From Aminivibrio sp. (GTDB lineage: Bacteria; Synergistota; Synergistia; Synergistales; Aminobacteriaceae), in NCBI RefSeq assembly GCF_016756745.1, contig NZ_JAESIH010000025.1, positions 62,001 through 126,000 of the forward strand: a stretch of 64,000 nucleotides of DNA, in the 5' to 3' direction. Below are positions 3,928-51,979 of the stretch, piece after piece; the first letter of the stretch is position 1, and each line of letters starts with the position of its first letter. The notes under the pieces are model-generated. The model was not told where the DNA came from and ran no database searches. It saw only the letters and a program-made list of their open reading frames with translations. The position numbers were made by a program, and so were the translations under genes.

Positions 3928-3929
3928 GA

Positions 3930-6832: not shown

Positions 6833-6835
6833 GAT

Positions 6836-19928: not shown

Positions 19929-19945
19929 TCAAGGGAGGTAAAAAG

Positions 19946-20071: not shown

Positions 20072-20100
20072 GTTATTCAGCTTAAGGAAGGAGAATGATC

Positions 20101-21905: not shown

Positions 21906-22073
21906 TGTTTGTTGCAAAATAGAAAGGGACAAAGTTGCAAAGTAAAATTCCTCACTATTGCATCGGGGGAATCCCCGGAATTGCAAAAGGGCCATTGAAA
22001 GCATGAACCCATGCCCTGTACCCTTTGAGTGTTATCCAGACACTTCAGGGGGAGGGAACGGAGGATGCTGACA

Positions 22074-23594
22074 ATGACCCGGATCAATGATATCAGAAAA
22101 GCCTATTTCGAGAATGGCTGCACCATCAGCGCCATCGCGGCAAGGTTCGGCATCGACCGCAAGACCGCGAGGAAGTACATCGAGAAAGAGGACTTCAACG
22201 AACCGCCTCCGGCCCAGCCGGCAGCAAGCCGGTGGCCCAAGCTCGAGCCCTGGCGGAAGCAGATCGACGAATGGCTCGAGGGCGACGTGAAGGCAAGGAG
22301 GAAACAGCGCCACACGGCCAAGCGGGTGTACGACCGCCTGTGTACGGAGGTGAAGGACTTCGGATGCTCCTACCGTACAGTGGCCTCCTACGTGAAGGAG
22401 AAGAAGTACCAGATCTATTCGGGTGTTCGCGCCGCATTACCTTTGGAGCACAAGGCGGGAGAAGCCCAGGTGGACTTCGGCAGCGCCGACTTTTACGAAA
22501 ACGGAAGGCTCTGTTCGGGGAAGTACCTCAACGTCTCCTTCCCCTACAGCAATGCCGGCTACCTCCAGCTCTTCAGGGGAGAGAACCGGGAATGCCTCTT
22601 CGAGGGCCTGAAGGCAGTCTTCGAACACATAGGAGGAGTACCTCCGCGGCTGTGGTTCGACAACATGTCCACCGTCGTGGCCCAGGTACTCAAGGAAGGA
22701 AAGCGGGATCTGTGCGAACCCTTCCTCCGCTTCAAGGAACACCACGGGTTCGAGGCGGCCTTCTGCAACGTGAACGCCGGACACGAAAAGGGGAACGTGG
22801 AAAACAAGGTCGGCTACCACAGGCGCAACCTCCTGGTCCCCGTCCCCCGGTTCGAGGATCTCGAGCAGTACAACAGGGAACTCCTCCGCCTCTCGGAGGA
22901 GGACCATTGCCGGGAACACTACAAGAGAAACAGCACCATCGAGACCTTGCACCGGCAGGACAAAGAAAACCTTCACCCCCTGCCGTCGGCGGAATTCGAC
23001 TGTGCAGGCTACGAAACGGTGAAAACGGACATCTGGGGCAAGTTCCGGCTCGGCGGAGTTCATACGTACTCCACCTCCCCCAAATACGCCGGAGGGAGGG
23101 TTCTTGTCAGGATATCAGCGAACAGCATCACTCCCCTGGACGAGAACCACCGCCCCGTAACGGAGCACCGAAGGCTGTACGGCCCCGGGAAGCAGGAGGC
23201 CATGGACTGGCTGCCCTACCTCACCCAGCTCTCCCGCAGCCCCGGAGCCCTGAAGTACTCCGGAATCTGGACCATGCTGCCGGAGGAACTGCACGCCTTT
23301 CTGGACGGCAAGGACAAAAGCGGGCAGAGGAATGTCCTGAGAACCCTTGCCATTCTCAGCGAACGGGACGGATTTGAAAGAGCCGTGAAAAGCGTGTCCG
23401 AGGCAGTGCGGCGGGGAGTGGAAGACCTTGACAGCCTGGTGGTCCTTCATGACCACCTTCACAGGGAACACCCCGCCGACCGGATGCAGATTGACGAAAC
23501 GAAGCAGCCTGGAATCCCGAGGCTTCCCGAAGTGCACTTCACGCTCTCAGCCTATGCAGACCTTATTCCCGGAGGAGGAAGGCTGCCGTGCTGA
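22074..23594 (+). CDS. istA: IS21-family transposase IstA
   Basis: A 506-residue transposase. An N-terminal helix-turn-helix (CTISAIAARFGIDRKTARKYI) is followed by a DDE integrase core, seen as AQVDFGSADFY, LWFDNMSTVV and, for the glutamate, NAGHEKGNVENKVGYHRRN. ATG at 22074 lies 9 bases after GGAGG; an upstream ATG at 22065 touches that site and is less likely. It works with IstB for transposition. High G+C and no frameshift indicate an intact gene. Confidence 0.9.
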   Translation: MTRINDIRKAYFENGCTISAIAARFGIDRKTARKYIEKEDFNEPPPAQPAASRWPKLEPWRKQIDEWLEGDVKARRKQRHTAKRVYDRLCTEVKDFGCSYRTVASYVKEKKYQIYSGVRAALPLEHKAGEAQVDFGSADFYENGRLCSGKYLNVSFPYSNAGYLQLFRGENRECLFEGLKAVFEHIGGVPPRLWFDNMSTVVAQVLKEGKRDLCEPFLRFKEHHGFEAAFCNVNAGHEKGNVENKVGYHRRNLLVPVPRFEDLEQYNRELLRLSEEDHCREHYKRNSTIETLHRQDKENLHPLPSAEFDCAGYETVKTDIWGKFRLGGVHTYSTSPKYAGGRVLVRISANSITPLDENHRPVTEHRRLYGPGKQEAMDWLPYLTQLSRSPGALKYSGIWTMLPEELHAFLDGKDKSGQRNVLRTLAILSERDGFERAVKSVSEAVRRGVEDLDSLVVLHDHLHREHPADRMQIDETKQPGIPRLPEVHFTLSAYADLIPGGGRLPC

Positions 23595-24319
23595 AGGACG
23601 AACTGCTCGCATGCTGCAAAAGACTCCGGCTGAGCCGGAACCTGGCGGACAACAGCGAACTTGTGGAGGCGGACAGCAGGGAGGAATACCTCCTCAGCCT
23701 TCTGAAACTTGAAATCGGGCACAGGGAAAAGGGCAGACGGGACCGCCTCATCAAGGCGGCCGGGTTCACCAGCTGGAAGACCTTTGACGGCTTTCACTTC
23801 GACGACGTCAAGCTCCCGTCGGGAGTCACTCCCGACTACCTGGCCAAAGCCCGTTTCGTGGAGGAGAAGAAGAACCTCATCCTGTACGGCAACGTGGGAA
23901 CCGGAAAGACCCACTTAGCCACGGCCATAGGGATCGAGGCATGCAGACTCGGAATGAGCACCGGTTTTTACCGGACGGCCAATCTGGTCAACCGCCTCTC
24001 CGAAGCCAGGAAGACGGGGAAACTGGGGAAGCTTCTGGCGGCACTCGGCAAACTTGACCTGCTGATCTGCGACGAATGGGGGTACGTCCCGCTGGACAGG
24101 GAGGCGGCCCAGCTTCTCTTCCAGGTAATCTCGGACAGCTACGAAAGAAGGAGCGTGATAATCACCACAAACCTGGAATTCAGCCGATGGGTGGGAATCT
24201 TCTACGATGAGCAGATGACGGCGGCGATGATAGACCGTCTGGTGCACCACAGTTACCTGCTGCTTTTTGATGGCCCGAGCAACCGGGTGAGAGACTCTTT
24301 GATGCGCAGGGGGGTGTGA
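23588..24319 (+). CDS. istB: IS21-family helper ATPase IstB
   Basis: A 243-residue DnaC-like AAA+ ATPase with Walker A GNVGTGKTHLA and Walker B LDLLICDEWG, followed by the sensor stretch SVIITTNLEFSRW. It selects target DNA and stimulates IstA. The start is GTG at 23588, overlapping the end of istA, with AGGAGGAAGG upstream. It appears intact. Confidence 0.9.
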   Translation: MLKDELLACCKRLRLSRNLADNSELVEADSREEYLLSLLKLEIGHREKGRRDRLIKAAGFTSWKTFDGFHFDDVKLPSGVTPDYLAKARFVEEKKNLILYGNVGTGKTHLATAIGIEACRLGMSTGFYRTANLVNRLSEARKTGKLGKLLAALGKLDLLICDEWGYVPLDREAAQLLFQVISDSYERRSVIITTNLEFSRWVGIFYDEQMTAAMIDRLVHHSYLLLFDGPSNRVRDSLMRRGV

Positions 24320-24817: not shown

Positions 24818-26242
24818 TTAAATCGAGTTTTGCACCTTCGCTGAATGTATGACTTCCCCTATTTTTTCCACACCCTTTGCAATTTCGGAAAAACTTAGAT
24901 GAGCATATCCCAGGATAATTTCGTTAACATGACGTCCATGATTCTGGAAGGAAAAGTCCTCAACGGGATAGACCGTTACGCCATTTGCTGTAATTTTGCG
25001 GACAAGGTCTTCGGTAAAAACAACATTATGGAACGAAACAAGCACGTGAAGTCCTGCGGTTTGTCCCTTGATTTCAAATTCGCCTGGAAAACGGGCATTG
25101 AGTTCGGAAATTAGATATTTTCGTTTTTGATTATAAATTTTATTCATTTTTGCAGTGTGTTTTTCCAACCGTCCGCTGTTGATGAATTCATGTAAAACGT
25201 GTTGTGACAAAGATTCCGAGTGGAGGTCGGTGTTCATTCTATATGCTTTATACCGGGGGATAAGGCTGTCGGGCAAAAGCATGAAACCAAGGCGAAGAGC
25301 AGGGGTCAAAATCTTGCTGAACGAACAGACATAGATCACCCGGTCAGGGTTAAGTTCATAAAGGGAGCTTATTGGTGTTCCTTCAAATCGGAATGTGCTT
25401 CCGTTACCGTAGTCGCTTTCTATTACATAGCAATCATTATCGGAAGCATACTGGACAATCGCCTGTCTTCTTTGAATGGGCAGTATGCTTCCCAGGGGGT
25501 ATTGGTGAGAAGGAGTAGTGTAAATTAAGGAAATGTTGGGATCGCTTATCAGAAACGATGTGTTCATTCCTTTATCATCCGCCTCGATTCCTGCGAGAGA
25601 AAAACCGGCAGAGGCAAAGATATTCAGAATGCTGGGATGGATCGGATCTTCCACCAGTACCTTATTTTTGCTTTTGTAGAGAATTTTAGAAATGAGAGCC
25701 AGCCCCTGGGTAGCCCCGGATATGATCATTACATTTTTGGGGTCGCACTCAATCCCTCTTGTTCTGAATAAGTACTTTGATATACTCTCTCTCAGTTCCC
25801 ACACACCCGCAAAGTTGCAGTAGCGGAATGCTGACAGGGGAAGAGAACCGCATATTTTACTGTAGAGCTTTCCCCATTCTTTTTGCGGAAAGAGAGAGAA
25901 ATCCGGGATTCCGGATCGGAAATCGATAGTTTCTTCCTTCGTATCAAAAGGGGCAGATAGAGCAGCGCGGTCTTTCTTGTACATCCTTTTCTGCTGTTTT
26001 GCAATTCCTGTAGCAACAACGGTTCCTGAGCCTTGTTTCCCCTCAAGGAATCCTTCGGCAACCAGCTGACTGTAGACTTCAAGGACGGTATTTCTTGAGA
26101 CATCCAGTTTTTTTGAAAGATCTCTTGAAGAGGGCAGCCTTTCACCTGGTGCTGCCTTCCCTTCCAGGATTATTTCTTTGACGTAAGAATACAATTGTCG
26201 CTTCAAAGAAGTACCGCTATTTTTCTCCAGGCCTTTCCACAC
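24818..26242 (-). CDS. MocR/PdxR-type GntR regulator with aminotransferase domain
   Basis: A 474-residue regulator. Its N-terminal GntR winged helix (PGERLPSSRDLSKKLDVSR) is fused to a fold-type I aminotransferase-like domain containing ISGATQGLALIS, DPIHPSILNIF and the PLP-lysine motif CSFSKILTPALRLGF. MocR proteins use PLP, often with an amino compound, to sense metabolites and switch neighbouring genes. GTG at 26242 is chosen because GGAG lies 7 bases before it; another GTG at 26251 overlaps that site. It is divergent from the dehydrogenase/TRAP/Grd genes and is their probable regulator. An amine-sensing regulator fits a pathway that cleaves a C-N bond (inference). Confidence 0.85.
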   Translation of the reverse strand: MWKGLEKNSGTSLKRQLYSYVKEIILEGKAAPGERLPSSRDLSKKLDVSRNTVLEVYSQLVAEGFLEGKQGSGTVVATGIAKQQKRMYKKDRAALSAPFDTKEETIDFRSGIPDFSLFPQKEWGKLYSKICGSLPLSAFRYCNFAGVWELRESISKYLFRTRGIECDPKNVMIISGATQGLALISKILYKSKNKVLVEDPIHPSILNIFASAGFSLAGIEADDKGMNTSFLISDPNISLIYTTPSHQYPLGSILPIQRRQAIVQYASDNDCYVIESDYGNGSTFRFEGTPISSLYELNPDRVIYVCSFSKILTPALRLGFMLLPDSLIPRYKAYRMNTDLHSESLSQHVLHEFINSGRLEKHTAKMNKIYNQKRKYLISELNARFPGEFEIKGQTAGLHVLVSFHNVVFTEDLVRKITANGVTVYPVEDFSFQNHGRHVNEIILGYAHLSFSEIAKGVEKIGEVIHSAKVQNSI

Positions 26243-26256
26243 AATAATCACTCCTG

Positions 26257-26796: not shown

Positions 26797-27906
26797 ATGG
26801 TAGAAAATACAACGCGAGCTTTCGGCTGTCCTTTGAGATATATTCAGGGCTACGGTGAATTCAGTAATCTGGCATCGTATACTGCGAAATTTGGAAAAGC
26901 ATGCTTCATAATCGATGGTTTTCTTTTTGAAGAATTGAACGCGCGCTTGAAGGCTGTTTATAAGGACGACTCCGGGATTTTCCTTTCAGTGTGTTTCAAG
27001 GGGGAGTGCTGGGACGGCGAGATTGAACGTATCGCGAAGATCGCCAGGGGAAATGGAATTTCCGTAATTGTAGGGGTCGGCGGAGGAAAAACGCTGGATA
27101 CGGCCAAGCTGTGTGCCGATGAATTGGGGCTTCCCGTCATTATTGTTCCTTCTTCTGCATCAAATGATGCTCCAGTAAGCGAGATCGCGGTTCTCTATAC
27201 CGAGAGCGGAGAATACATCGGCTCAAGGAAAATGAAGCGGAATGCGGAACTCGTTCTTGTAGACAGTGAAATAATTGCAAAATCACCCCGGAGACTCTTT
27301 GTAGCCGGAATGGGCGACGCCCTTGCAACTTGGTTTGAAGCCAGGGCAAACGAAGCTTCCGACTCTCCCAATTACGTCGGTCAGGGATATAAGCGCTGCA
27401 AAATCGGCATGGCCATTGCAGAAACGTGCCACGAGACGCTCTTTAATGACGGTAAAAAAGCCTTGATGGCTCTCGAAAGAGGAGCTATCACTGAAGCAGT
27501 TGAAAACGTAATCGAAGCCAACATCCTCATGAGCGGGCTCGGGTTTCAAAATACCGGGCTGGCCACGGCCCATGGAATTCATTCCGGTCTTACCGCAGTT
27601 CCTTCTACTCACAAATACCTCCATGGTGAAAAAGTTGCTTTCGGAATAGTCTGCCAGATGATTCTCGAAAACAGTCCTGAAGAAGAGATTGATGAAGTCA
27701 TGGCCTTCATGGTCGAAATCGGTCTCCCTGTAACTCTGGCCCAATTGGACGTTGAAGCTACCCACGAGAATATTTCTGCCATCGCTTCCAAGACAGTTCA
27801 AAATCCCCTGATACATCACGAACCTTTCAAGATTACCGGTGAACTTGTGTACAGCGCAATTCTTGCGGCAGATCAGCTTGGCCGCAGGTATCTCGAAAAC
27901 AATTGA
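26797..27906 (+). CDS. Glycerol-dehydrogenase-like iron/zinc alcohol dehydrogenase
   Basis: A 369-residue NAD-dependent dehydrogenase of the GldA group (iron-containing alcohol dehydrogenase superfamily). The nucleotide site VGVGGGKTLDTAK is near residues 90-105. Metal ligands are seen as the Asp in GMGDALATWFEA and the two histidines in TAHGIHSGL and STHKYLHGE. GldA enzymes oxidise glycerol and related vicinal diols or amino alcohols to ketones. ATG at 26797 gives the usual family length; its ribosome site is weak. It precedes the TRAP and glycine-reductase-like genes on the same strand, so its substrate may be a hydroxy-amine fed to the reductase (inference). Confidence 0.8.
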   Translation: MVENTTRAFGCPLRYIQGYGEFSNLASYTAKFGKACFIIDGFLFEELNARLKAVYKDDSGIFLSVCFKGECWDGEIERIAKIARGNGISVIVGVGGGKTLDTAKLCADELGLPVIIVPSSASNDAPVSEIAVLYTESGEYIGSRKMKRNAELVLVDSEIIAKSPRRLFVAGMGDALATWFEARANEASDSPNYVGQGYKRCKIGMAIAETCHETLFNDGKKALMALERGAITEAVENVIEANILMSGLGFQNTGLATAHGIHSGLTAVPSTHKYLHGEKVAFGIVCQMILENSPEEEIDEVMAFMVEIGLPVTLAQLDVEATHENISAIASKTVQNPLIHHEPFKITGELVYSAILAADQLGRRYLENN

Positions 27907-27978
27907 TTCAAGGGACAGGCATCACAGCTGTTGAAGATGATTTACGTTTTCAGATTCTATCTTGAAGGAGGAGTAGTA

Positions 27979-28989
27979 ATGAAGCGTTCTTTTCGTATCC
28001 TGATGATGTGTTTGGCAATTTTCTGTTCTTTCTCGTTGCTCAGCGGAGTGGCCGGTGCGGCAGATAAACCGCTGTCACTTGAGTTTGGCCACATCCAGAA
28101 TCCCGGGCATTCTCTGGCCATCGCACCTGAAGAATTTAAAGCCATGGTTGAAGAGCGGTCGAACGGCAGAGTCGTGGTCAATATTTATCCCTCGAGCCAG
28201 CTTGGTACCGCCCGCGAGATGATGGAGCAGGTTTCCATGGGCACCCTTGACATGACCTGCTGTGACACTGCGGACTGGGCATCAGCCCTCAACATCCCGA
28301 AGCTTGCGGTATTCAATCTTCCCTTCCTGACGAAAAACCTTGCGACTCAGGCTACTCTCATTCGGACAATAGTCCCTGAAGAAGTGCCGGCAATGATAGA
28401 AGGGGCCGGTGTCCGCCTTCTCATGACCTATTCCAATGGTATTCGTCAGCCCCTGCTGAAGCACAAGCCGCTCAACAGCCTTGATGACATTAAGGGGCTC
28501 AAAATGCGTACTGCGGAAACTGCCATGTATGTGGACCTTTGGAATGCTCTTGGGGCAAGCACCGTGACCTCTGCCTGGAGCGAAGCATACACGCTCCTCC
28601 AGCAGGGAGTGGCGGATGCTCTTGAAGCAGACGTAACCGGTCTTGTGAACCAGAATATGCAGGAAGTCGGAAAGTACCTCTCAAAAATAGGCCATCTGGG
28701 CGCGATCTACTGTGTGTTCATTAATGAAGACAAGTGGAATTCCATTCCTGAAGATCTCCAGAAGATAATCCAGGAGGCGGCCCTGGAAAGCCAGGAGAAG
28801 CAGCTTCTTGGACGGCAGGCTTCTGACGATGCAGCCGAGCAGGTCATGGTCAAGGCCGGAGTTGTCATCAACGAAGTCAGCCCCGAGGAACGCAACAGGA
28901 TGAAAGATGCCTGCAAGGCAATCTACGAGAAATACGAAAAAATGGGACTTGGTGAACTTATCAACCGTATGCTTGCACTGAACTCCTAA
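27979..28989 (+). CDS. dctP: TRAP transporter substrate-binding protein DctP
   Basis: A 336-residue periplasmic binding protein. A signal peptide (MKRSFRILMMCLAIF to SGVAGAA) is followed by the DctP fold with HIQNPGHSLAIAPEEF, IYPSSQLGTAREMMEQV, a MRTAET ligand-arginine motif and AWSEAYTLLQQGVADALEAD. It binds a solute, usually an organic acid, for the DctQM permease. The start is supported by GAAGGAGG seven bases upstream. It begins 72 bases after the dehydrogenase gene. A strong hairpin follows the gene and probably keeps binding-protein levels above those of the permease. Confidence 0.9.
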   Translation: MKRSFRILMMCLAIFCSFSLLSGVAGAADKPLSLEFGHIQNPGHSLAIAPEEFKAMVEERSNGRVVVNIYPSSQLGTAREMMEQVSMGTLDMTCCDTADWASALNIPKLAVFNLPFLTKNLATQATLIRTIVPEEVPAMIEGAGVRLLMTYSNGIRQPLLKHKPLNSLDDIKGLKMRTAETAMYVDLWNALGASTVTSAWSEAYTLLQQGVADALEADVTGLVNQNMQEVGKYLSKIGHLGAIYCVFINEDKWNSIPEDLQKIIQEAALESQEKQLLGRQASDDAAEQVMVKAGVVINEVSPEERNRMKDACKAIYEKYEKMGLGELINRMLALNS

Positions 28990-29010
28990 TACGGACAAAG
29001 AATCTGCCTG

Positions 29011-29055
29011 AAAAGTGTGCGCATAATGACAGCCTATGCGCACACTTTTCTTTTT
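29011..29055 (+). terminator. Attenuating hairpin between dctP and dctQ
   Basis: AAAAGTGTGCGCATA (29011-29025) pairs perfectly with 29035-29049 around a 9-base loop and is followed by CTTTTT. It looks like an intrinsic terminator inside the operon, allowing partial read-through to dctQM. Confidence 0.8.
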
Positions 29056-29071
29056 GAAAGGGCTGAATCGC

Positions 29072-29563
29072 ATGAATAAGCTTCTAAAAATAGACCGGTT
29101 CATTGAAACCGCGCAAGTTCTGTTCTGTGCCCTGATGTTTACCTTAATACTCATTTTCGGGAGCATACAGGTTTTCGGGCGCTCGATTTTTAGCGCTGCT
29201 CCTCCCTGGACCGAGGAAGCCATGCGCTTTTGCGGGATCTATCTCACTCTGATAGGCTCCGCCCTCACGGTCCGGGTAGATGGCCACGTATCGGTGGACA
29301 TTCTCATCGAACATATGAAAAGTCACAAAGTCAGGGCAGCGTTGTATCTGTTCTCCAGGCTCCTCTGCGTTGTCTTTCTCATTCTCTTTTTTCCCGGTTC
29401 CATTACTCTGGTTGAGAAAAGCACGCGGTCCCTGGGAGCCGCAATCCGTATCCCGTACTCGTATATTTACGCAGTTGTACCAGTGGGTATTTTGATGATG
29501 CTTTGCTCCTATGCCAGCGCTATTCCCCAGTTTACAAGGCAATATCTCAAGGGGGAAAGATAA
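29072..29563 (+). CDS. dctQ: TRAP transporter small permease DctQ
   Basis: A 163-residue protein with four hydrophobic segments and the DctQ-type motif PPWTEEAMRF after the second. ATG at 29072 follows AAAGGG; an earlier in-frame start at 29036 falls inside the attenuator hairpin. It forms the membrane complex with DctM, whose ATG directly follows this stop. Confidence 0.85.
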   Translation: MNKLLKIDRFIETAQVLFCALMFTLILIFGSIQVFGRSIFSAAPPWTEEAMRFCGIYLTLIGSALTVRVDGHVSVDILIEHMKSHKVRAALYLFSRLLCVVFLILFFPGSITLVEKSTRSLGAAIRIPYSYIYAVVPVGILMMLCSYASAIPQFTRQYLKGER

Positions 29564-30847
29564 ATGCTCACAATAGCGATTATTGGCCTGTTGGTTTTTC
29601 TTGCATTGGGCGTGCCAGTGAGCTTTGCCATAGGGCTCGGCGGACTTCTGGCCATTCTTTTTGGAAGCAACTTACCAGGCTTTATGGCCGTGCAGCAGAT
29701 GATCCGCGGAATGAACTCCTTTGCTCTTATGGCGGGGCCTCTTTTTATCCTTGCGGGGGAAATAATGGGGGCTGCGAACCTTTCAAAGCTGATTCTGGAC
29801 TTTTGCCGCTCCGTTATTTCCTGGACCAAAGGCGGCCTGGGGATGGTCTCAGTAATGGCAAACATGATTTTTGCCGGCATTTCAGGATCCGGGGCTGCAA
29901 CCATGAGCGCCATCGGTTCCCTGACCGTGCCTGAACTGAAAAAATCCGGCTATCACAGGTCCTTCGTGGCTTCTCTCATTGCCGGTTCCGGCGCTCTTGG
30001 CCCTATCATCCCCCCCAGCACCAACATGATAGTGTATGCCTCTTTGACCGGTTTCTCTACGGGAAAACTTTTTATCGGAGGTATTGTACCGGGAATCATT
30101 ATCGGCCTTTGCCTTATGGGAATGTGTTACTGGTATGCCAATAAATACAAGGTTGATCTTGGTACCGGTACGTTCGACATACGGCTTGTCTGGAAAACCT
30201 TCAAAAAAGCCTTTTTCGCCCTTATCATGCCTTTTATCATTATCGGGGGCGTCACTTCGGGCTTTTTTACCGCTACAGAGTCCGGAATAATAGCCTGCCT
30301 GTACGGTTTGGTTTGCGGATTTTTCATTTACCGTACTCTTCAGTTGAGAGACCTCTATACGATTTTCAAAAGAGCGACAGCCTCTTCGGCAATGCTCATG
30401 ATGCTCATGGGTATGGCAAATATATATTCATACATTTTTGCCCGTGAAAATCTTGCTGGACACATTAAGGACCTGATGACTTCAATCTCCACAAACCCGA
30501 CAGTAGTGGTGCTCATCATTATTGGCATAATGCTTGTCATCGGCTGTTTCATGGAAACCCTCGCAGCTACGGCGGTTATTTTGCCGATCGTCTATCCGAT
30601 CATAACCAACCTGGGTGTTGACCCACTCATGTTCGCTGTGCTCTATTCCATTGCCACCGTCGTTGGCGCCCTAACACCGCCTGTGGGGCTCTATCTCTTT
30701 ATGTCGATGAACATCGCCGAAGCGACCTTCCAGGAAGCGATACGGTACAGCGCACCGGTCATCCTGATCATTTTGGCAACAATGGGTCTGATTGTGCTTT
30801 TCCCTCAGCTCGTTACATTTCTTCCGAACCTGCTGATGGGGGCTTAA
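29564..30847 (+). CDS. dctM: TRAP transporter large permease DctM
   Basis: A 427-residue membrane protein with about 12 segments, the channel-forming subunit of the sodium-driven TRAP carrier. Characteristic stretches are PLFILAGEIM, FAGISGSGAATMSAIG, IIPPSTNMIVY and TPPVGLYLFM. It starts on the base after the dctQ stop. With DctP and DctQ it should import the substrate of the glycine-reductase-like enzyme encoded just downstream. Confidence 0.9.
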   Translation: MLTIAIIGLLVFLALGVPVSFAIGLGGLLAILFGSNLPGFMAVQQMIRGMNSFALMAGPLFILAGEIMGAANLSKLILDFCRSVISWTKGGLGMVSVMANMIFAGISGSGAATMSAIGSLTVPELKKSGYHRSFVASLIAGSGALGPIIPPSTNMIVYASLTGFSTGKLFIGGIVPGIIIGLCLMGMCYWYANKYKVDLGTGTFDIRLVWKTFKKAFFALIMPFIIIGGVTSGFFTATESGIIACLYGLVCGFFIYRTLQLRDLYTIFKRATASSAMLMMLMGMANIYSYIFARENLAGHIKDLMTSISTNPTVVVLIIIGIMLVIGCFMETLAATAVILPIVYPIITNLGVDPLMFAVLYSIATVVGALTPPVGLYLFMSMNIAEATFQEAIRYSAPVILIILATMGLIVLFPQLVTFLPNLLMGA

Positions 30848-30878
30848 GTTTGAAATAGCAAGAAAAGGAGCTGGACAA

Positions 30879-32183
30879 ATGAAACTCACCCTTGAAACAG
30901 TCAGGATAAAGGACCTGCAATTTGGCAGCGATACGTGTCTAAAAAACGGGGTTCTCTACGTCAATAAGGATGACATCATCTCAATTGCTGAGAGTGAACC
31001 GGTATTCAATACACTGAAAATAGACATCGCCCGCCCCGGAGACAGCACGAGGATAATTAACGTTGTCGACGTTATCCAGCCCAGATGTAAAGTCTCAGAC
31101 GGTATCGATTGGCCGGGGGTCCTTACGGAAGAATACGACATAGCGGGCAAAGGCGTAACACGAATCGTTGAAGGAATGGGAATCGTGCTATGCCAGAATA
31201 ACACGTACTGGTCCCGCAAGTGGGGTTCATTTGACATGAGCGGGCCCTGTGCTTCGATCAATCCTTTTGCAAAAATGCCTGAACTTGTCATAGAGCCTCT
31301 CGCCCCTGAGGGAGCAGATTTCCGGGAGTACCGGGAAGCGGTTCGGCGCATAGGTTTTAAAACGAGCGTTCTTCTCGCAAAAGCGACAATGGGGGCTGAA
31401 CCCGACGAAGTTGAAGTGCTGGACAATGAAACCAGCTATCCAGGATTGCCAAGGATTGCCTATTCATACCAGATTTACTCAAAACAGTACGATACTCAAA
31501 ATTACCGGGAACCGATGTTCTATGGGAATGCTGTTCCTGATATCCTGCCCATCGTTGTCCAGCCAACGGAAATACTTGATGGCGCTATTGCACATTGTGG
31601 AGGTTTCCGCTGCGTTACTACCTATGAAATTCAAAATCACCCGGTAATCCTGGAACTTATGCGTCGTCATGGAAAAGAATTGAACTTTGCCGGAGTGCTG
31701 GTAACCGTTACATCGGTCGAAGCAAAACACCGGTCACTGGTTTCCAAGATGGCGGCGAACATCTTGAAGGAAACTTTACGGGCAGACGGACTTATCGTCA
31801 CCAAAGGCGTTGGTGGTGCATCAACTCTTTGTGTGGGTGCCATCGCCAGCGAAGCAGAGAAACTTGGAATTAAGTCTGTGCCCATCATCCAGATACTGAA
31901 TGGAAAAAGCAATCTCAGTGTTGAATGCCTTATCAGTGAGCCGAATGTCGATTCAATCGTCTGTTCTGGTACCTACTATCACAACTTCAAACTCCCGCCG
32001 GTAGACCTCCTTCTTGGAGGCCCTGAGGACGCCCTCTATCTTAGCGGTGATGATGGCGTTATCGGTGGGCACAAAATCGCGACCGGAAATCCGGCTAAGG
32101 GAGAAGTCTGGTCTACCTATATGAAGCAAGTCGGCCTGATGAGCCAGGTTGGAGCTTCTTTCGGCAAAGCGGTCGATTATTGA
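30879..32183 (+). CDS. Glycine/sarcosine/betaine-reductase-like component B, GrdE-type subunit
   Basis: A 434-residue homologue of GrdE/GrdG/GrdI, the substrate-binding subunit of component B. In the characterised enzyme the precursor is cleaved before a cysteine (Cys242 in the glycine enzyme), making a carbonyl group that holds the amino substrate. Here ILDGAIAHCGGFRCVTTYE has cysteines at 240 and 245 at the equivalent place, and downstream HPVILELMRRHGKELNFAGV and LPPVDLLLGG match the family. The residues around the cysteine differ from glycine-type GrdE, so the substrate may be different. AAAGGAG precedes the ATG. It follows dctM by 31 bases and precedes the selenoprotein gene by 19. Confidence 0.85.
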   Translation: MKLTLETVRIKDLQFGSDTCLKNGVLYVNKDDIISIAESEPVFNTLKIDIARPGDSTRIINVVDVIQPRCKVSDGIDWPGVLTEEYDIAGKGVTRIVEGMGIVLCQNNTYWSRKWGSFDMSGPCASINPFAKMPELVIEPLAPEGADFREYREAVRRIGFKTSVLLAKATMGAEPDEVEVLDNETSYPGLPRIAYSYQIYSKQYDTQNYREPMFYGNAVPDILPIVVQPTEILDGAIAHCGGFRCVTTYEIQNHPVILELMRRHGKELNFAGVLVTVTSVEAKHRSLVSKMAANILKETLRADGLIVTKGVGGASTLCVGAIASEAEKLGIKSVPIIQILNGKSNLSVECLISEPNVDSIVCSGTYYHNFKLPPVDLLLGGPEDALYLSGDDGVIGGHKIATGNPAKGEVWSTYMKQVGLMSQVGASFGKAVDY

Positions 32184-32202
32184 AAAATGTGGAGGTAGGA
32201 CT

Positions 32203-33513
32203 ATGAACGGCAAAAAATGGAGAGTCGTCTGTTTCATCAATCAGTTTTTCGGCCAGATCGGCGGAGAAGATATGGCCCACGTAGGTTTCAGCGTGAAGAA
32301 CGAAGCTGTCGGCCCTGCCAAACTTTTTGAGACCCTGATGAAAGATGAATGTGAAGTGGTGGGAACGGTCATCTGCGGCGATAATTATTTCGCTGAAAAC
32401 ACGGAAACTGCTGTTGGGGAAGGTGTTGAACTTGTAAAAAACCTCGAGCCCGACCTGTTTATCGCAGGCCCCGCGTTCAATGCCGGTCGATATGGAATCA
32501 GCTGCGGAAATATGGTTTCGGCTGTTGGTAAAACCCTAGGTATTCCCACCGTCACGGCCATGTATCCTGAAAACCCTGCAGTAGAGCTTTTTCGCAAGGA
32601 CACCTATATTGTAAAAACAGGCATAATGTCGTCAGAACTAAGAAAAACTGCGCCCCAGATGGTCAGCATTGGGCTTCGTCTGCTTCGTCAGGAGCCCATC
32701 GGCAGCGCGATGTCCGAGGGCTATATCATCCGGGATATTATCCTCAACGAGGAGCAGGAAGAAAATGCAGCGGTGCGCGCAATAAATATGGTGCTGAAGA
32801 AAATTAAGGGAGATCCCTTCGAGAGTGAACTGCTGCCTCCCAATTTTGACATAGTGGAGCCTGCACAGCCCGTCTCCGATCTCAAAAAAGTCAAATTGGC
32901 TCTTGTATCGGACGGTGGACTTATCCCGGAATCAAATCCCGATAAGCTCAAGCCGAATGGAAGTACTACCTGGGGGCAATACAACTGGGAGAGCCTCATT
33001 GGGGAAAAGCATTTCGTTATCCATAGCGGGTATGACGGAACATCGGTTCTCGAATTGCCTTACCGCCTTTTCCCTTGGGATGCGCTGCAGGAGTTGGTAA
33101 AAGAAGGCAGGCTTGGTTCACTGGATACGGATGTTTTTGTAGCCTGCGGTAATTGTGCATCGGTAGCCGCCTCACAGGAGAAGGGACGCCGGATTGCAGA
33201 GGCCCTGGAAAAGAGAGGTGTCACTGCGGCCATTTTGACATCCACCTGAGGAACAAGTACTCGTTGCGGTGCAACGATTGCAAAAGAGATTGAAAGAGCG
33301 GGAATTCCGGTAACCCAGATCTGTGCTGTTGTGGACATCGCGAAGTCTGTGGGGGCTTCCAGAATACTGCGTGGGTTTGCAATTACATGCCCGGTGGGAA
33401 ATCCCACCCTGGGAGAAGCCGATGAAAAAAGACTCCGGCGCCGCTATGTGGAAAAAGCCCTGGAAATGCTTGCCAGGCCAGGACAGAGGGGCATGGTTGA
33501 AGACCTGATCTAG
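32203..33513 (+). CDS. GrdB/GrdF/GrdH-type selenoprotein, TGA read as selenocysteine
   Basis: The selenoprotein subunit of component B. Reading stops at TGA 33247-33249 if decoded normally, but the frame continues to TAG at 33511-33513 and gives 436 residues, the standard GrdB length. Around the TGA the protein reads ILTST-U-GTSTRCGA, matching the conserved UGTxTRCG site; selenocysteine is residue 349. A hairpin suitable as a bacterial SECIS follows at 33262-33276. The C-terminal part continues with family features (PVTQICAVV, ITCPVGNP). ATG at 32203 is preceded by GGAGGTAGG. The enzyme would reductively split a C-N bond and pass the product as a selenoether to selenoprotein A. GrdA, GrdC and GrdD are not in this window and must be elsewhere. 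Confidence 0.92.
33262..33276 (+). promoter_or_regulatory. Candidate SECIS hairpin for selenocysteine insertion
   Basis: CGTTGC-GGT-GCAACG forms a perfect six-pair stem. The loop G is about 18 bases after the TGA, within the range used by bacterial SelB-dependent SECIS elements. It lies inside the coding sequence, as expected in bacteria. Confidence 0.75.
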
Positions 33514-33552
33514 GAGAAACAACTTTTTTCAGAAAGAATGAGGGAAATTACG

Positions 33553-35076
33553 ATGAGAAAAAAGCTCTTGGGAATTGACCTTGGTACCGGAGGCTGCAAG
33601 ACAACGTTCATCGATCTGGACGGAAATATTTGTGCTTCCTCGTTTAAGGAATACCCGTCAGAGCATCACAGGCCCGGATGGTCGGAACAGGATCCCTCCC
33701 TTTGGATAAACGCTCTGCTGGATACCGTGAAAGATTGCAAATCGCAAATGTCAGACGGCTTTTCCGGTGTAATCTGCCTGGCCGTCACCGCTTCGACCCA
33801 CAACGCTGTCCTGCTGGACAAGCACGGCGAAGTCATTCGCAGATGCATCATGTGGAACGACCAGCGAAGCGGAAGCCAGTGCGAAAGCCTGAAACAGCAG
33901 TACGACGAAACTATCTTCAGGATTGGCATGCAGCGTCCAACACCTACGTGGACCTTGCCTCAGCTTATGTGGGTGAGGGAGAACGAACCGGAAAACTATG
34001 CCAAGATAGACAGGATCATGTTCACAAAGGACTATGTACGTTCCTGGCTGACCGGTGATTTTTGCACCGACGTGGTGGATGCCCAGGGAAGCCTCCTGTA
34101 TGATGCCAGGGAAATGAAATGGTCACCCGAACTATGCGGAATGATAGGACTTCCCCTTCATACACTGCCGGAAATCAGGCTATCAAAAGAAATAGTCGGC
34201 CATGTACAGGCTGAAGCTGCCCGTCTTACAGGCCTGCCTGAAGGACTTCCTGTCATTGCCGGGTGTTCCGATACGGCCGCCGAGGATTTTAGCGCCGGTG
34301 CAACCAAGGTGGGGCAGATAATAGTAAAACTCGCGACGGCGGGGAACGTGAACGTTGTTGCAGACATGCCCAATCCCCACAGCAAGACATTTACCTATCC
34401 CTACTCGATAGAAGGGCTGTGGTACACCGTTACCGCTACCAACAGCTGTGCTTCGGCCTACCGCTGGCTCCGTGATAGTCTTTACTGCGGTGACAAGGCA
34501 GCCTGCGAGAAAAATGGAGAAGAAGTTTACCGTTTGATGGATGAGGAGGCTTCCAGCGTTCCTCTCGGGGCAAGGGGACTTATATTCCACCCGTTCCTTC
34601 TCGGGGAGCGATGCCCCTATTTTAACCCCAAAGCCAGAGGAGATTTCTTCGGCCTGAGCATGGTTCATTCAAGGCCGCATTTTGCGAGGGCATTGCTTGA
34701 AGGAGTGGCTTTCAGTCTTTATGACTGTCTACAGGTTCTTGCAGATTTCAACAGGAACCTCGAAGATATTGCAATTATTGGCGGTGGAGCAAAGAGTCCT
34801 CTCTGGAGTCAGATAATATGCGATGTTTTCGGCCTTGAAGTGAAATTTCCCAGAAATGCTGAATCCTCCTACGGCGGGGCTCTCCTTGCGGGCGTAGGAG
34901 CGGGAGTATTTCAATCAGAATATGAGGCTGCAGAAAAATGCATCAAAATGAATAAAACGTATGTGCCGAACATGGAGAATCACGAGAAATATCTGAAATA
35001 CTATAAGATCTATAAAGAAATTGCGGACGCATCCTTCCCGATTTGGGAGAACCTCGCTCAAATAGCAAATGAGTAA
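33553..35076 (+). CDS. FGGY-family carbohydrate kinase (xylulokinase-like)
   Basis: A 507-residue ATP-dependent sugar/polyol kinase. The N-terminal phosphate loop is GIDLGTGGCKTTFIDLDG, the substrate region includes SEQDPSLW and IMWNDQRS, and the second ATPase domain shows IAGCSDTAAEDFSAGA and AIIGGGAKSPLWSQI. It resembles xylulokinases in length and motifs. ATG at 33553 has GAGGGA seven bases upstream; ATG at 33538 lacks a site. It is the last gene of the operon, just before a strong terminator. Together with the GldA-like enzyme it implies that a polyol or ketose is formed or consumed. A link to the Grd-type cleavage product is inference. Confidence 0.85.
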   Translation: MRKKLLGIDLGTGGCKTTFIDLDGNICASSFKEYPSEHHRPGWSEQDPSLWINALLDTVKDCKSQMSDGFSGVICLAVTASTHNAVLLDKHGEVIRRCIMWNDQRSGSQCESLKQQYDETIFRIGMQRPTPTWTLPQLMWVRENEPENYAKIDRIMFTKDYVRSWLTGDFCTDVVDAQGSLLYDAREMKWSPELCGMIGLPLHTLPEIRLSKEIVGHVQAEAARLTGLPEGLPVIAGCSDTAAEDFSAGATKVGQIIVKLATAGNVNVVADMPNPHSKTFTYPYSIEGLWYTVTATNSCASAYRWLRDSLYCGDKAACEKNGEEVYRLMDEEASSVPLGARGLIFHPFLLGERCPYFNPKARGDFFGLSMVHSRPHFARALLEGVAFSLYDCLQVLADFNRNLEDIAIIGGGAKSPLWSQIICDVFGLEVKFPRNAESSYGGALLAGVGAGVFQSEYEAAEKCIKMNKTYVPNMENHEKYLKYYKIYKEIADASFPIWENLAQIANE

Positions 35077-35115
35077 AAGCAAGGCCCCGTCAAAACGACG
35101 GGGCCTTTGCTTTAT
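35076..35115 (+). terminator. Terminator of the Grd/kinase operon
   Basis: AAAGCAAGGCCCCGTC pairs with GACGGGGCCTTTGCTTT around an AAA-type loop and starts at the kinase stop codon. It is a strong G+C-rich stem with a short T tail. Confidence 0.85.
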
Positions 35116-35129
35116 CTCTTGCCAAACCA

Positions 35130-35254
35130 ACCAGTCCTGGCCCCAAAAGCAGATGGCAGATTGGGTGTTTTTTCGCAGAAAAGATTTCCTCTGGGGGAGG
35201 CGCATTCCCACTAGACATAGCGGCTTCGGAAACACTGCGGTTATCCGGTATGGA
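35130..35254 (-). repeat. IS end repeat, copy 1
   Basis: This stretch (around TTTTTTCGCAGAAAAGATTT and GCGCATTCCCACTAGACATA) is repeated with moderate divergence at 39915-40036. It directly adjoins a truncated transposase gene and is probably the end of that element after an internal deletion. Confidence 0.6.
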
Positions 35255-35556
35255 AACCGATAAAGGATAGCCTGAACATCGCAGAAGACCTCTTTTTTGT
35301 AGAGGCTGAGACGGACAAGTTTCACGATCTCCTCGATTTCATCAGGCGTTCTGTTTGCGCAGTTTTTCAGACGCCGTGATGAGTCCTTGCTCCATAGTTC
35401 ATCGTTGTCATGGTGCTCCTGGCGTTTTAGCCACTTGTAGAGCCAGGCTTTCGATTTGTCGAGTGAAGCGCAGATGGATTCAGGCTTTTCGCCATTACGA
35501 AAACGTTGAACGGCCAGAATTCTCTGCTGCTCATCCTTATTTTTCACGGGTTCCAC
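35255..35556 (-). pseudogene. Truncated transposase, helix-turn-helix part only
   Basis: From ATG at 35556 the minus strand reads MEPVKNKDEQQRILAVQRF, then SICASLDKSKAWLYKWLKR, a transposase-type helix-turn-helix. It ends after EIVKLVRLSLYKKEVFC, where intact relatives would go on to an integrase core. Beyond about 35255 the frame runs into the repeat and the kinase terminator and is meaningless. The element lost its catalytic part. Confidence 0.65.
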
Positions 35557-35757: not shown

Positions 35758-37041
35758 CTATTTGCAGAACTGCTGCTTTACCATTTCCCAAAGCCCGTTT
35801 TTTTCCAGGACGGTTTTGGTCAGCAACAGTGTCAGAAAGACCGTGCCCGAAGTTCGACCGATGGAGACTTCACCGCAGACCGTCGCCAGATTTTTGATTT
35901 CATCCGCCGGAAGGCCTGTCAGTTTCGCAGCTCTTTCCACCGCGCTCTCTATGGCCAGGTTTAGGTTTTGTCCGGTGCCGACCACCTGGACGGGGAATCT
36001 TTTTTCCATCTGGCCTGGTTCCTTTTGCAAAAGGACGGTAGCGGTGGTGTACTCTGCTTCGGAAAACGGCTGGAATCGCTTATCCACCAAGTCGGCCCGG
36101 GGTATGATAACCGGCCCTTCGAGGGCCAGCCCCTTGATGACCTTGACCCGAAGCGTGACCCGGGCGCTGATGTCGAGGGTATGGCCAGCCAGTTCTCCGT
36201 TCCCCTGGGTAAGATGGACGTCGCCGAGATAGATTCCGGCTCCCTTTATCTTTACAGGTGAAAGAATCACGCAGCCCTCGCTGACGGTGTTGATGTCCAT
36301 GTGGGCGTCGGTGATGTCCGATACTGTGACGGTTTCGAAGAGTCTCGTTTTGTTGAGAGAATCAATGAGGTCACCCGAATTTTTTGATGAGGGCATGGCC
36401 TTTGCGGGGGAGCAGCCTATATTCCCTATCATGGGGCAGGAGCGGATGATCATGTCTTCGATATCCGACTTTGCGAGTATGGTCGCCAGGTTCTGCTGCG
36501 ATCCATGGGGGAGATAGACCTCGCCCCTTTCGGTTTTCCTTGCCGCTTCCTGTGCCATTTCAGCAGGCAGGCTCACAGCTATTTTTGTCGCATCATCTAT
36601 TGCGACGGTGTAGCCATTTGCAATATCCTGAGGAATGATGCTCTGTCCGCATTCGCTGCATTTGACCGCCTCGGGCCCGATACCTTTTAGAACCGTCTTC
36701 GGGTAATATGTGCCGCAGGAGGGGCACTTGGCATGGAGTGAGGGGTCCTTATCGAAGTTTTCGGGGATTTTTCTGCCCGTTCCTGAGGCCGCATAGTCGG
36801 AAAGGACTTCAATGCGTTCCACGAACAGGGCTACAGTATCGCCGGGCTCGGTTCCCGCGACCTCAACGGGGCAGGTCACTTCGTGTCCGCTTTTTAGATG
36901 GGGCGTTATCATGGGGCCCCAGCATCCCGGAGGGGTTTCTGCAATGAGCACGTCTCCATCGTGCACTTTACCGCACATTTCTGAGGATCCGCCTACGATA
37001 TCGGTGTATTTTTCGACAGTATAGGAGTTCTTGGAATTCAT
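35758..37041 (-). CDS. Acetamidase/formamidase-like amidohydrolase (FmdA/AmdA)
   Basis: A 427-residue member of the acetamidase/formamidase family, which releases ammonia from short amides. Family features are PPGCWGPMITPHLKSG, the GDTVALFVERIEV strand, GNIGCSPA, GDVHLTQGNGELAG and a closing AVERAAKLTGLPADEI. It contains an extra four-cysteine segment (CPSCGTYYP and CSECGQSI), probably a small zinc ribbon, near residues 105-135. ATG at 37041 is the best start for family alignment, although GGGAGG is 14 bases upstream. It lies downstream of the symporter gene and is divided from it by a terminator, so it may have its own promoter. The substrate is unknown; an imported amide or lactam is likely. 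Confidence 0.75.
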   Translation of the reverse strand: MNSKNSYTVEKYTDIVGGSSEMCGKVHDGDVLIAETPPGCWGPMITPHLKSGHEVTCPVEVAGTEPGDTVALFVERIEVLSDYAASGTGRKIPENFDKDPSLHAKCPSCGTYYPKTVLKGIGPEAVKCSECGQSIIPQDIANGYTVAIDDATKIAVSLPAEMAQEAARKTERGEVYLPHGSQQNLATILAKSDIEDMIIRSCPMIGNIGCSPAKAMPSSKNSGDLIDSLNKTRLFETVTVSDITDAHMDINTVSEGCVILSPVKIKGAGIYLGDVHLTQGNGELAGHTLDISARVTLRVKVIKGLALEGPVIIPRADLVDKRFQPFSEAEYTTATVLLQKEPGQMEKRFPVQVVGTGQNLNLAIESAVERAAKLTGLPADEIKNLATVCGEVSIGRTSGTVFLTLLLTKTVLEKNGLWEMVKQQFCK

Positions 37042-37080
37042 GGCGATGAGGTTTTCCTCCCTTGGACGTTCTTGATAGAA

Positions 37081-37113
37081 AAGGGTGAACCCCTGAGCAG
37101 AAAGTTCACCCTT
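37081..37113 (-). terminator. Terminator between symporter and amidase genes
   Basis: AAGGGTGAAC and GTTCACCCTT form a perfect 10-pair stem. On the minus strand it is followed by TTTTC. It would end or reduce transcription from the symporter gene. Confidence 0.7.
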
Positions 37114-37165
37114 TTCCATTGCGTGTGTTATCGAAAGTTCTGTTCAGTGCCTCTTGTATCGGACG

Positions 37166-38626
37166 CTATTCGAAAATCTTTGCCATAAACGTGCTGTCGT
37201 TGGGTTTCGTGACCTTACTTACGACCACCATGACCACGGCAGAAACCACTAGGCCCCAGACCAGGGGGTTGAAGCCGAGGGGGTTCGGATTGGACTGCGC
37301 GTAGAGGACGAGAAGGGTAATGAACCCTGAGATCATGGACAGGAGTCCTCCCATGGGGGTGCCGCCCTTCCAGAAGAACCCGAGGATGATGGGGACAGTG
37401 AACGACGCTGCGAAGCCGGAAATAGCAAACATGACGATGTCCTGCAGGAACTTTGGCGGGTTGAACGACAGGACCATGACTATTGCGCTTATTGCAACTG
37501 TCGCGATATAGCTTGTCGTCTTGATCGCCTTTTCGCTGGCGTTGGGGTTGAAGTTCCGCTGGTAGATGTCCTTCATTATCGCTCCGCTGGTGGAGATGAT
37601 GAGCGAAGACACCGTGGACATGACTGCTGCTAAGGGCGCCGAAAGCAGTATGCCTGCCATGACGTTACCGGAATATTGGAGCACTATGGTAGGGAAGATT
37701 CTGTCAGGAACATCGATCTGGGGTATAAGCGCCCGGGCTGCAAGGGCACTCACAAACAGTGACATGAACCACACCAGGGTGATCAGGCTGATGAGGGCTC
37801 CTGCCCGTTTCAGGGACATCATGTTCTTGACGGTGAAAATCCTTGTGACCACGTGAGGCTGTGCCATAACGGCAACGCCGAGGATGAAGAACGTTGAGAA
37901 CGCTGTGGGAAGGGGAAGGAAGTTCTTCGGTCCCGGGGGTGTGATAAGGTTGGGGTCAAGTTGAGCCAGCTGGCGGGTGATCTCGGGTAAACCACCAGCT
38001 GCTTTTACCATTATGAACGCGATAACAACGGATCCTCCCAGCATAACGATGCCCTGGAGAAGGGTGTTGTACGCCACGCCGCGGATACCGCCGATGGTGG
38101 TATAGAGGCCCACTATCACGGCGAAGGAGATTATTGCCCACATGTAGGGGATGCCGATGAATGTCTCGAGAATGCGTGCAGCGGCGATATACTGGGACAC
38201 CATGTAGGCGACGCCGAAGACAAGGATTGAGAGTGCGGCGATGATGCCCATAAGCCGGCTCTGGAACCGTTCAACGAAGAGGTCAGGGAGAGTGACGCAG
38301 TTGTGTTCGGCTGCGAAACGGGAGATCCTCCGGCCGATGGCAAGCATTCCGATCATGCCGAGAACGCCTGCGCCTGCCTGCCAGAGGAGAGCGGTCCATC
38401 CCATGGAGTAGTAGACTGCGGGTGTTCCGATAAAGGTTCCGCCGCTCGTCCATGAGGTCGCCCACATAAAGGCCACGATCCAGGGACCGAAAGACCGCCC
38501 GGCGACGTAATATTCCTCGGAAAAGTTCTTTGCGTTCTTCCGCCTGTAGTACGCATAGACCGAAATACCGATGAGAACCACGAAGTAGCATGCGAATACC
38601 ATAAGAGTGACTGGAGATGCCTGCAT
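37166..38626 (-). CDS. Sodium:solute symporter, PanF-like
   Basis: A 486-residue carrier with about 13 membrane segments and SSS signatures: EEYYVAGRSFGPWIVAFMWA, TLPDLFVERF, TTIGGIRGVAYNTLLQG and AAVMSTVSSLIISTSGAI. It resembles the pantothenate permease branch, whose members need a small YhdT-type partner; that partner is encoded immediately upstream with a one-base overlap (TAATG). The operon also has an IclR regulator upstream and an amidase downstream, so the transported solute is probably an amide or carboxylate used as a nitrogen or carbon source. Confidence 0.85.
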   Translation of the reverse strand: MQASPVTLMVFACYFVVLIGISVYAYYRRKNAKNFSEEYYVAGRSFGPWIVAFMWATSWTSGGTFIGTPAVYYSMGWTALLWQAGAGVLGMIGMLAIGRRISRFAAEHNCVTLPDLFVERFQSRLMGIIAALSILVFGVAYMVSQYIAAARILETFIGIPYMWAIISFAVIVGLYTTIGGIRGVAYNTLLQGIVMLGGSVVIAFIMVKAAGGLPEITRQLAQLDPNLITPPGPKNFLPLPTAFSTFFILGVAVMAQPHVVTRIFTVKNMMSLKRAGALISLITLVWFMSLFVSALAARALIPQIDVPDRIFPTIVLQYSGNVMAGILLSAPLAAVMSTVSSLIISTSGAIMKDIYQRNFNPNASEKAIKTTSYIATVAISAIVMVLSFNPPKFLQDIVMFAISGFAASFTVPIILGFFWKGGTPMGGLLSMISGFITLLVLYAQSNPNPLGFNPLVWGLVVSAVVMVVVSKVTKPNDSTFMAKIFE

Positions 38627-38901
38627 TATTTTTCATCTCCTTCCATGACGAAGAAACCGTAGACTATGGTGAGCAGGACCATCAGGATCCAGGGGATGAC
38701 GACTCCGAAAAGAATCCATGAGGGAATCCCCCAGATAATGGTGATTTCCTCAACCGGTTTGTTGTATCCCAGGAAGTATGAGATCGCGCATGACAAAAGG
38801 ATGTAGATCATCGTTGTCGAAAAGGCGAATTTAAATTCTTTCAAAGACAATGCGTAAGTGCTTTTTACCTGCTCCTTTGGCATTTTTTGCAATGAAGCCA
38901 C
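38626..38901 (-). CDS. YhdT/DUF997-like small membrane subunit
   Basis: A 91-residue protein with two hydrophobic helices (TTMIYILLSCAISYFLGY and the region around FGVVIPWILMVLLTIVYGFF). This is the architecture of YhdT/DUF997 proteins that sit in front of PanF-like symporters. The start is taken as GTG at 38901, which lies right at a GAGAGGG ribosome site; TTG at 38892 is better spaced and possible. The stop overlaps the symporter ATG. It is probably an obligate symporter subunit. Confidence 0.75.
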   Translation of the reverse strand: MASLQKMPKEQVKSTYALSLKEFKFAFSTTMIYILLSCAISYFLGYNKPVEEITIIWGIPSWILFGVVIPWILMVLLTIVYGFFVMEGDEK

Positions 38902-38914
38902 CCCTCTCTTTTTT

Positions 38915-39730: not shown

Positions 39731-39745
39731 TTCGATCACCTCGAT

Positions 39746-39762
39746 GGTTGTATATAGCAACC
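39746..39762. promoter_or_regulatory. Possible IclR operator
   Basis: GGTTG-TATATAG-CAACC lies just upstream of the IclR start, at the 5' end of its message. The arms are only five bases, so this is a weak candidate. Confidence 0.3.
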
Positions 39763-51785: not shown

Positions 51786-51979
51786 ATTTACCTCCCCCGG
51801 ATTTCCGGCAAACATGGCGGTATGGACTGCCCAGAGATTTTCAGCACGATTCTCGAACTACGCCACTGCATTGGCTGAAATCCTGCATTCTTCAATAAGG
51901 ACACTCTCTTCTTTCAATAAACATTTTCCCAAATATTACCATATATTTCTTTGAGGCTCGCATGTTTGCAGATCTTTTC

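Follow-up and report, generated by a model that had tools for sequence, protein, structure and literature searches.

A glycine-reductase-like operon with an in-frame TGA codon

The 64,000-nucleotide stretch of Aminivibrio sp. DNA analysed here (contig NZ_JAESIH010000025.1; hereafter the window, counted from its first letter) contains seven co-directional genes, called on the plus strand between 26797 and 35076, that encode GldA, DctP, DctQ, DctM, GrdE, GrdB and an FGGY kinase. We assigned families by NCBIfam and Pfam profile scans. Together with the gene calls, these scans confirmed every part of an initial annotation that had placed a GldA-like dehydrogenase, a tripartite ATP-independent periplasmic (TRAP) carrier, GrdE- and GrdB-type subunits of component B and an FGGY kinase on one strand, with a divergent MocR regulator that falls just outside the operon.

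24818–26251, minus strand: MocR/GntR-family regulator with an aminotransferase domain, divergent from the operon
26797–27906, plus strand: GldA-type glycerol dehydrogenase (NCBIfam subfamily match; motifs read by eye)
27931–28989, plus strand: DctP, TRAP solute-binding protein (family scan; likely true start at the ATG at 27979)
29036–29563, plus strand: DctQ, small TRAP permease (weak NCBIfam match)
29564–30847, plus strand: DctM, large TRAP permease (family scan)
30879–32183, plus strand: GrdE-type subunit of component B, new clade (family scans, trees, alignment)
32203–33513, plus strand: GrdB-type selenoprotein, new clade, with selenocysteine (Sec) at residue 349 (family scans, trees, read-through frame)
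33247–33249, plus strand: in-frame TGA read as Sec, in the motif UGTSTRCG (canonical UGTCTRCG)
33257–33281, plus strand: hairpin resembling a selenocysteine insertion sequence, directly after the Sec codon (folding)
33538–35076, plus strand: FGGY carbohydrate kinase, own clade (FGGY_N/C)

GldA scored 429 bits, above the cut-off of 336 for the glycerol dehydrogenase subfamily NF006941, and inspection found all of the expected metal and diol motifs (SNDAP, GDAL, HGIH and LHGE). DctP and DctM matched the NCBIfam dctP and dctM models. The grdB frame is broken by the TGA, a feature absent from the initial annotation, and resumes as ...ILTST-U-GTSTRCG... up to the TAG at 33511–33513. The hairpin has a folding energy of −11.1 kcal/mol (z −2.1, with 5 of 200 shuffles equally good) and lies within 35 bases of the TGA, and a tRNA-Sec scoring 74.5 bits, above its cut-off, is found elsewhere in the same genome. 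By these sequence signatures, window GrdB is a selenoprotein with a TGA-encoded Sec349.

GrdE and GrdB form a separate type of component B

Membership of the component B superfamily was clear, with scores of 401, 268 and 442 bits for PF07355, PF09338 and TIGR01918 (cut-offs 22, 22 and 65). The general model TIGR01918 was the only NCBIfam component B model passed; scores against all curated equivalogs fell below their cut-offs. The best NCBIfam score for GrdB was to the sarcosine type GrdF (NF040794; 460 bits, cut-off 800), followed by glycine GrdB (TIGR01917; 413 bits, cut-off 602) and betaine GrdH (NF040795; 409 bits, cut-off 775). GrdE matched best to the fluoroacetate subunit FarE (NF053623; 206 bits, cut-off 675), with 205 bits against a cut-off of 780 for sarcosine GrdG (NF040793). 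The reference FarE proteins at L036 and L103 reached 825 and 731 bits against the same cut-off of 675, confirming the fluoroacetate assignments.

The window proteins and those of related operons (together, the cassette) formed one clade both in a GrdB tree of 49 proteins (support 100/99) and in a GrdE tree of 57 (100/100). GrdB fell outside the glycine and betaine clades and the pair outside the sarcosine clade of L149. After addition of GrdG/GrdF from Peptoclostridium acidaminophilum, annotated as a sarcosine reductase, the cassette remained whole, as did the groups for sarcosine, betaine and fluoroacetate. The cassette joins the fluoroacetate group in the GrdE tree, by long branches that make this join unsafe. 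The tree check called for in the initial annotation thus set the pair apart from the glycine, sarcosine and betaine clades, and from the fluoroacetate clade as well. As judged from trees and profile scores, the GrdE–GrdB pair is a separate, undescribed component B type, distinct from the glycine, sarcosine, betaine and fluoroacetate types. Three more GrdE/GrdB pairs, at L032, L091 and L102, sit on long branches in none of the known groups and are possibly further undescribed types.

Sarcosine reductase GrdG/GrdF of P. acidaminophilum shares the two-subunit plan and has Sec at the same place, but cassette GrdE is 33% identical to its counterpart, the canonical UGTCTRCG and GNCVAPC motifs are lost in the cassette, and the sarcosine reductase operon lacks a dehydrogenase or kinase. 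Fluoroacetate reductase FarE/FarB of Cloacibacillus is likewise a GrdE/GrdB pair with its own carrier in the Synergistota, but its FarE loop lacks a cysteine and it is accompanied by a major facilitator superfamily (MFS) carrier and a radical-SAM gene rather than by GldA, TRAP and kinase genes. UGTSTRCG occurs in all ten cassette GrdB proteins, whereas the glycine, sarcosine and betaine types have UGTCTRCG; the first cysteine of the UxxCxxC motif that follows Sec has become serine in the cassette. The UxxC cysteine is also missing from FarB of the two Synergistales genomes examined, so the UxxCxxC motif is not universal across the superfamily. No sequence relative of GrdB was found in the PDB.

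The neighbourhood is conserved in two phyla

A scan of 84,980 species returned nine loci, of which eight belong to the close clade, one metagenome-assembled genome (MAG) contributing two. The GrdE clade occurs in 5 of 183 genomes of the order, comprising the window's own protein and four that are 76–87% identical (next best, 38%), and is rare in the two Bacillota orders searched (1 of 394 and 1 of 392 genomes). Its members come from Synergistaceae, another family of Synergistales, Flavonifractor, Lawsonibacter, Ohessyouella, a Lachnospiraceae MAG and an Eubacteriales MAG. The species name suggests that the Ohessyouella member is a cockroach-gut isolate, and several carriers are apparently gut bacteria.

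The usual gene order is [GldA] [SDR] DctPQM GrdE GrdB [RpiR] FGGY, where SDR is a short-chain dehydrogenase/reductase and brackets mark genes that vary. GldA gives way to an SDR in L007 and in L008, which begins at a contig edge; L006 and L043 carry the two together. In the Synergistaceae locus L009, iron-containing alcohol dehydrogenase (Fe-ADH), cupin and TRAP genes lie downstream and a GlcD-GlcF-EtfB-EtfA set upstream; in L011 a branched-chain-type ATP-binding cassette (ABC) importer replaces TRAP. L004 carries a MocR orthologue (78% identical) at the same position as in the window. Seven loci have an RpiR regulator beside the kinase, six of them between grdB and the kinase gene and L011 just before the kinase; Pfam confirmed the phosphosugar-sensing SIS domain in RpiR of L007. 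Roles are therefore kept as parts are swapped: the dehydrogenase is GldA, SDR or Fe-ADH, the importer TRAP or branched-chain-type ABC, and the regulator MocR or RpiR. Wherever the contig is long enough, GrdE/GrdB is adjoined by a dehydrogenase and by a kinase from the same clade, as the initial annotation required, with the qualification that GldA is sometimes joined or replaced by an SDR or Fe-ADH.

One might suppose that a known substrate is served by a divergent component B whose genes happen to lie next to an unrelated polyol operon, and the variation of transporters, regulators and dehydrogenases among loci would fit such an accident. Yet the same set recurs in two phyla, the occurrence of the kinase clade (59–83% identity; next kinase 36%) coincides exactly with that of the GrdE clade, in 5 of the 183 genomes, and the component B clade lies outside all known substrate types. 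Because orthologous neighbourhoods occur in both Synergistota and Bacillota, the linkage exceeds chance, and we consider accidental proximity hardly credible.

The cassette has a G+C content of 48–51% (44% for the MocR gene) compared with 59–61% in three other regions of the genome, it is missing from four genomes of the same genus, and the Bacillota members are nested among Synergistota in the GrdB tree. Transposase-related sequences flank it:

22029–24319: transposase and helper of an IS21 element, upstream of the operon
34915–35556, opposite strand: helix-turn-helix (HTH_23) transposase-like fragment, overlapping the 3′ end of the kinase gene

Low G+C, absence from the four congeners, the flanking transposase-related sequences and the nested tree together suggest that the cassette was transferred horizontally.

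Other glycine reductase genes in the genome

The operon itself lacks grdA, grdC, grdD and grdX, as originally annotated, but the host genome has three GrdB genes and two grdA genes (the latter identified by PF04723). One grdA belongs to a complete grdE-A-B-C-D glycine reductase cluster on contig C68 with an AGCS-type symporter, and a betaine-type pair on contig C39 adjoins an apparent BCCT-type carrier; grdC and grdD of C68 were assigned by order and length, and the carriers of both contigs by reading the sequence. The GrdB and GrdE of C68 are 42% and 33% identical to the cassette proteins, and that cluster encodes its own GrdA, GrdC, GrdD and symporter but, unlike the cassette, no dehydrogenase or kinase. 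Since grdA–grdD lie elsewhere in the genome, the cassette could borrow GrdA, and GrdC and GrdD if needed; the C68 cluster probably supplies GrdA. Consistent with this, GrdA was found in all nine cassette genomes tested. The second grdA is solitary, on contig C65 (L051, 9830–10276), without grdB and near a 2-amino-3-ketobutyrate ligase-like gene; one relative also carries a second grdA, on L074.

Changed residues in GrdE, GrdB and DctP

The processing loop of cassette GrdE reads [HPL]CGGFRC in place of GNCVSAC. Cys240 (codon 31596–31598) is kept in all ten members and the second cysteine in nine, Cys240 sitting two residues earlier than usual and without the preceding asparagine. In our alignment the betaine and fluoroacetate GrdE-type subunits have no cysteine in this loop, in agreement with a published survey (PMC10838667). 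Because the loop cysteine is kept, cassette GrdE may carry a pyruvoyl group, and an amine may accordingly be the substrate. Outside the loop, EEGxGNPD, a motif of glycine and betaine GrdE, is replaced by TKGVGGAST, and three GrdB residues that are near-invariant in the other types examined, G178, T319 and N386, are replaced by Asp, Ala and Ser, respectively, throughout the ten cassette members.

These residues bear on whether the cassette applies the canonical chemistry to a new N-substituted glycine, R-NH-CH2-COO−, with the carboxymethyl group converted to acetyl phosphate through GrdA, GrdC and GrdD, and the amino-polyol R degraded by GldA, SDR and the kinase. Characterised component B enzymes all act on X-CH2-COO− (PMC10838667 and general knowledge), TRAP and branched-chain-type importers would suit a zwitterionic acid, and the retained loop cysteine is in keeping with such a substrate. 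The C-terminal part of a grdD gene (L007, 3–512), directly upstream of the Ohessyouella cassette, also fits; it lies at the contig start, however, where it may belong to a neighbouring cluster, and we did not accept it as proof of acetyl-phosphate formation. Given the replacement of all three GrdB residues in every member and the loss of EEGxGNPD from GrdE, we regard this account as rather doubtful.

The ligand site of DctP was compared with published residue roles (PMC11668362). Two ligand arginines are retained and a conserved Asn has become Asp in all eight orthologues. Among solved structures, the isethionate-binding protein IseP scores best (143 bits, ahead of 127 for the runner-up), and DctP keeps the equivalents of IseP Arg156, Arg177 and Trp200. 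This match raises the prospect of a sulfonate route, in which 2,3-dihydroxypropanesulfonate or a similar compound would be oxidised to a ketone by GldA and selenium would displace sulfite. But the IseP sulfonate contacts Tyr153 and Asn217 correspond to Asn and Asp in DctP, the lead of IseP over other TRAP proteins is small, and no sulfite-handling gene was noticed beside the cassettes listed, although no search was aimed at one; we therefore think this route very unlikely.

Kinase relatives in alphaproteobacterial sister operons

The nearest relatives of the window kinase do not lie in xylose operons. Within plasmid records they are 42–44% identical and come from Roseibium, Labrenzia, Paracoccus, Shinella, Sinorhizobium and Mesorhizobium; in the first four genera the operon encodes a LacI regulator, an FAD oxidoreductase, the kinase, a sugar ABC importer, GldA (annotated in Shinella as an iron-containing alcohol dehydrogenase) and an SDR. 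These operons thus have the same dehydrogenase and kinase set as the cassette, and the kinases share motifs, but they lack GrdE/GrdB and use different carriers. The SDR of L007 had no close relative among plasmid records.

The flavoenzyme gene lies beside the kinase gene in the plasmid neighbourhoods read. In Mesorhizobium, the flavoenzyme encoded next to the kinase shares 45% identity with the L009 GlcD-like protein, and its relatives at E<1e-60 amount to ten records in the whole plasmid collection, all from genera with the kinase operon. The best solved relatives of these flavoenzymes are alkyl-dihydroxyacetone-phosphate (alkyl-DHAP) synthases, at 157 bits for L009 and 184 bits for Roseibium, compared with about 116–119 bits for lactate and hydroxyacid dehydrogenase structures, and the HHH motif of alkyl-DHAP synthase aligned in the Roseibium protein. 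We rejected a 2-hydroxyacid dehydrogenase assignment for the L009 protein, which scored 183 against a glcD cut-off of 568 and for which solved structures favour alkyl-DHAP synthase; an alkyl-DHAP-synthase-like function is favoured, with some doubt left by its GlcF and Etf neighbours.

Alkyl-DHAP synthase acts at C1 of a dihydroxyacetone phosphate unit, both making and breaking a bond beside the C2 ketone, and GldA acts on terminal diols, which it oxidises at C2. An alkyl-DHAP-synthase-like partner together with GldA and a kinase would fit a conversion of X-CH2-CHOH-CH2OH to X-CH2-CO-CH2OH and then to its phosphate, after which X would be lost; GrdE–GrdB would catalyse this final loss reductively in the anaerobes. 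By analogy, the sister operons point to a glycerol-like backbone with chemistry adjacent to a ketone.

A proposed pathway

From the observed gene content, Sec codon, separate clade, linkage and presence of GrdA, we infer the following chemistry, order of steps and substrate. The TRAP carrier would import an anionic compound, bearing a carboxylate or another charged group, that includes a polyol part. GldA would oxidise a hydroxyl to a ketone with NAD+, a step in which an SDR or Fe-ADH would join or replace it in relatives. The selenium of GrdE–GrdB would then displace the group adjacent to the carbonyl and pass the carbon fragment to GrdA of the host glycine reductase cluster, which would release it in reduced form. 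Before or after cleavage, the FGGY kinase would phosphorylate the polyol fragment for entry into central metabolism. The NADH from the dehydrogenase could pay for the reduction, so the route would be roughly redox-neutral.

On balance, and by a modest degree, we judge it probable that the cassette is a horizontally spread catabolic operon built around an undescribed substrate-specific component B and degrading a polyol-bearing compound. Several observations weigh against this. Window GldA is 38% identical to GldA of the alphaproteobacterial operons and nearer to annotated, ordinary glycerol dehydrogenases (43–47%). The kinase passes the XylB cut-off (TIGR01312; 398 bits, cut-off 380) and may be a plain pentulose kinase, but it has Thr at the position of E. 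coli XylB Met77. Because further component B genes occur in all of the cassette genomes, the presence of GrdA is not specific to the cassette; the idea that the cassette is the sole component B of some genomes was rejected for the same reason. Finally, the substrate could be a canonical X-CH2-COO− compound, with the operon enzymes acting on its two halves.

Within the proposed catabolic route, the backbone is most likely glycerol-like, X-CH2-CHOH-CH2OH; we favour such a three-carbon part over a longer amino-ketose because of GldA and the alkyl-DHAP-synthase-like partner of the sister operons. More tentatively, the cassette may represent a new reaction class: selenium-dependent reductive cleavage of a C–N, C–O or C–S bond adjacent to a ketone, not a carboxylate, on a glyceryl unit whose hydroxymethyl group is phosphorylated by the kinase. 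Cleavage adjacent to a ketone would yield no acyl phosphate. Import, oxidation to a carbonyl, reductive cleavage and polyol phosphorylation, all foreseen in the initial annotation, fit all of the evidence, whereas its amine leaving group, acyl phosphate and carbon skeleton stay conjectural.

Other features of the window

Just past the operon, 35758–39760 (minus strand) encodes an FmdA/AmdA amidase, a sodium symporter and an IclR regulator, and a comparable set of IclR, amidohydrolase and symporter genes lies at 17771–21579. A cluster for BREX-type (bacteriophage exclusion) defence (BrxC, PglXI, BrxHI and PglZ) at 127–16624 encloses a Dsr1 gene and a PDC-S19 candidate, and 48048–51815 encodes the SIR2-type defence protein Dsr2 (1439 bits). 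Tripartite tricarboxylate transporter genes, an SDR and a histidinol-dehydrogenase homologue occupy 57755–63098; HisD-like enzymes can be sulfopropanediol dehydrogenases.

Discussion

The open-access papers searched covered systems for glycine, sarcosine, betaine, proline and fluoroacetate, and none described an operon like this one. The figure legend of the Synergistota grdB survey (PMC10838667) names SLC6, putP, opuD and MFS carriers, and no TRAP or kinase operon. The original suggestion of an undescribed pathway holds up well.

Glycine, sarcosine, betaine and fluoroacetate make up the handful of substrates for which component B is known. Another type with sharp limits, linked to a dehydrogenase and a sugar kinase in both Synergistota and Bacillota, would widen the scope of selenium-based reductive cleavage and hint at an overlooked substrate. 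If cleavage adjacent to a ketone is correct, it would be the anaerobic, selenium-dependent counterpart of the alphaproteobacterial route, in which an alkyl-DHAP-synthase-like flavoenzyme acts on the same type of intermediate. The pair of operons, one with Grd proteins in anaerobes and the other with the flavoenzyme in alphaproteobacteria, could be used to find the compound.

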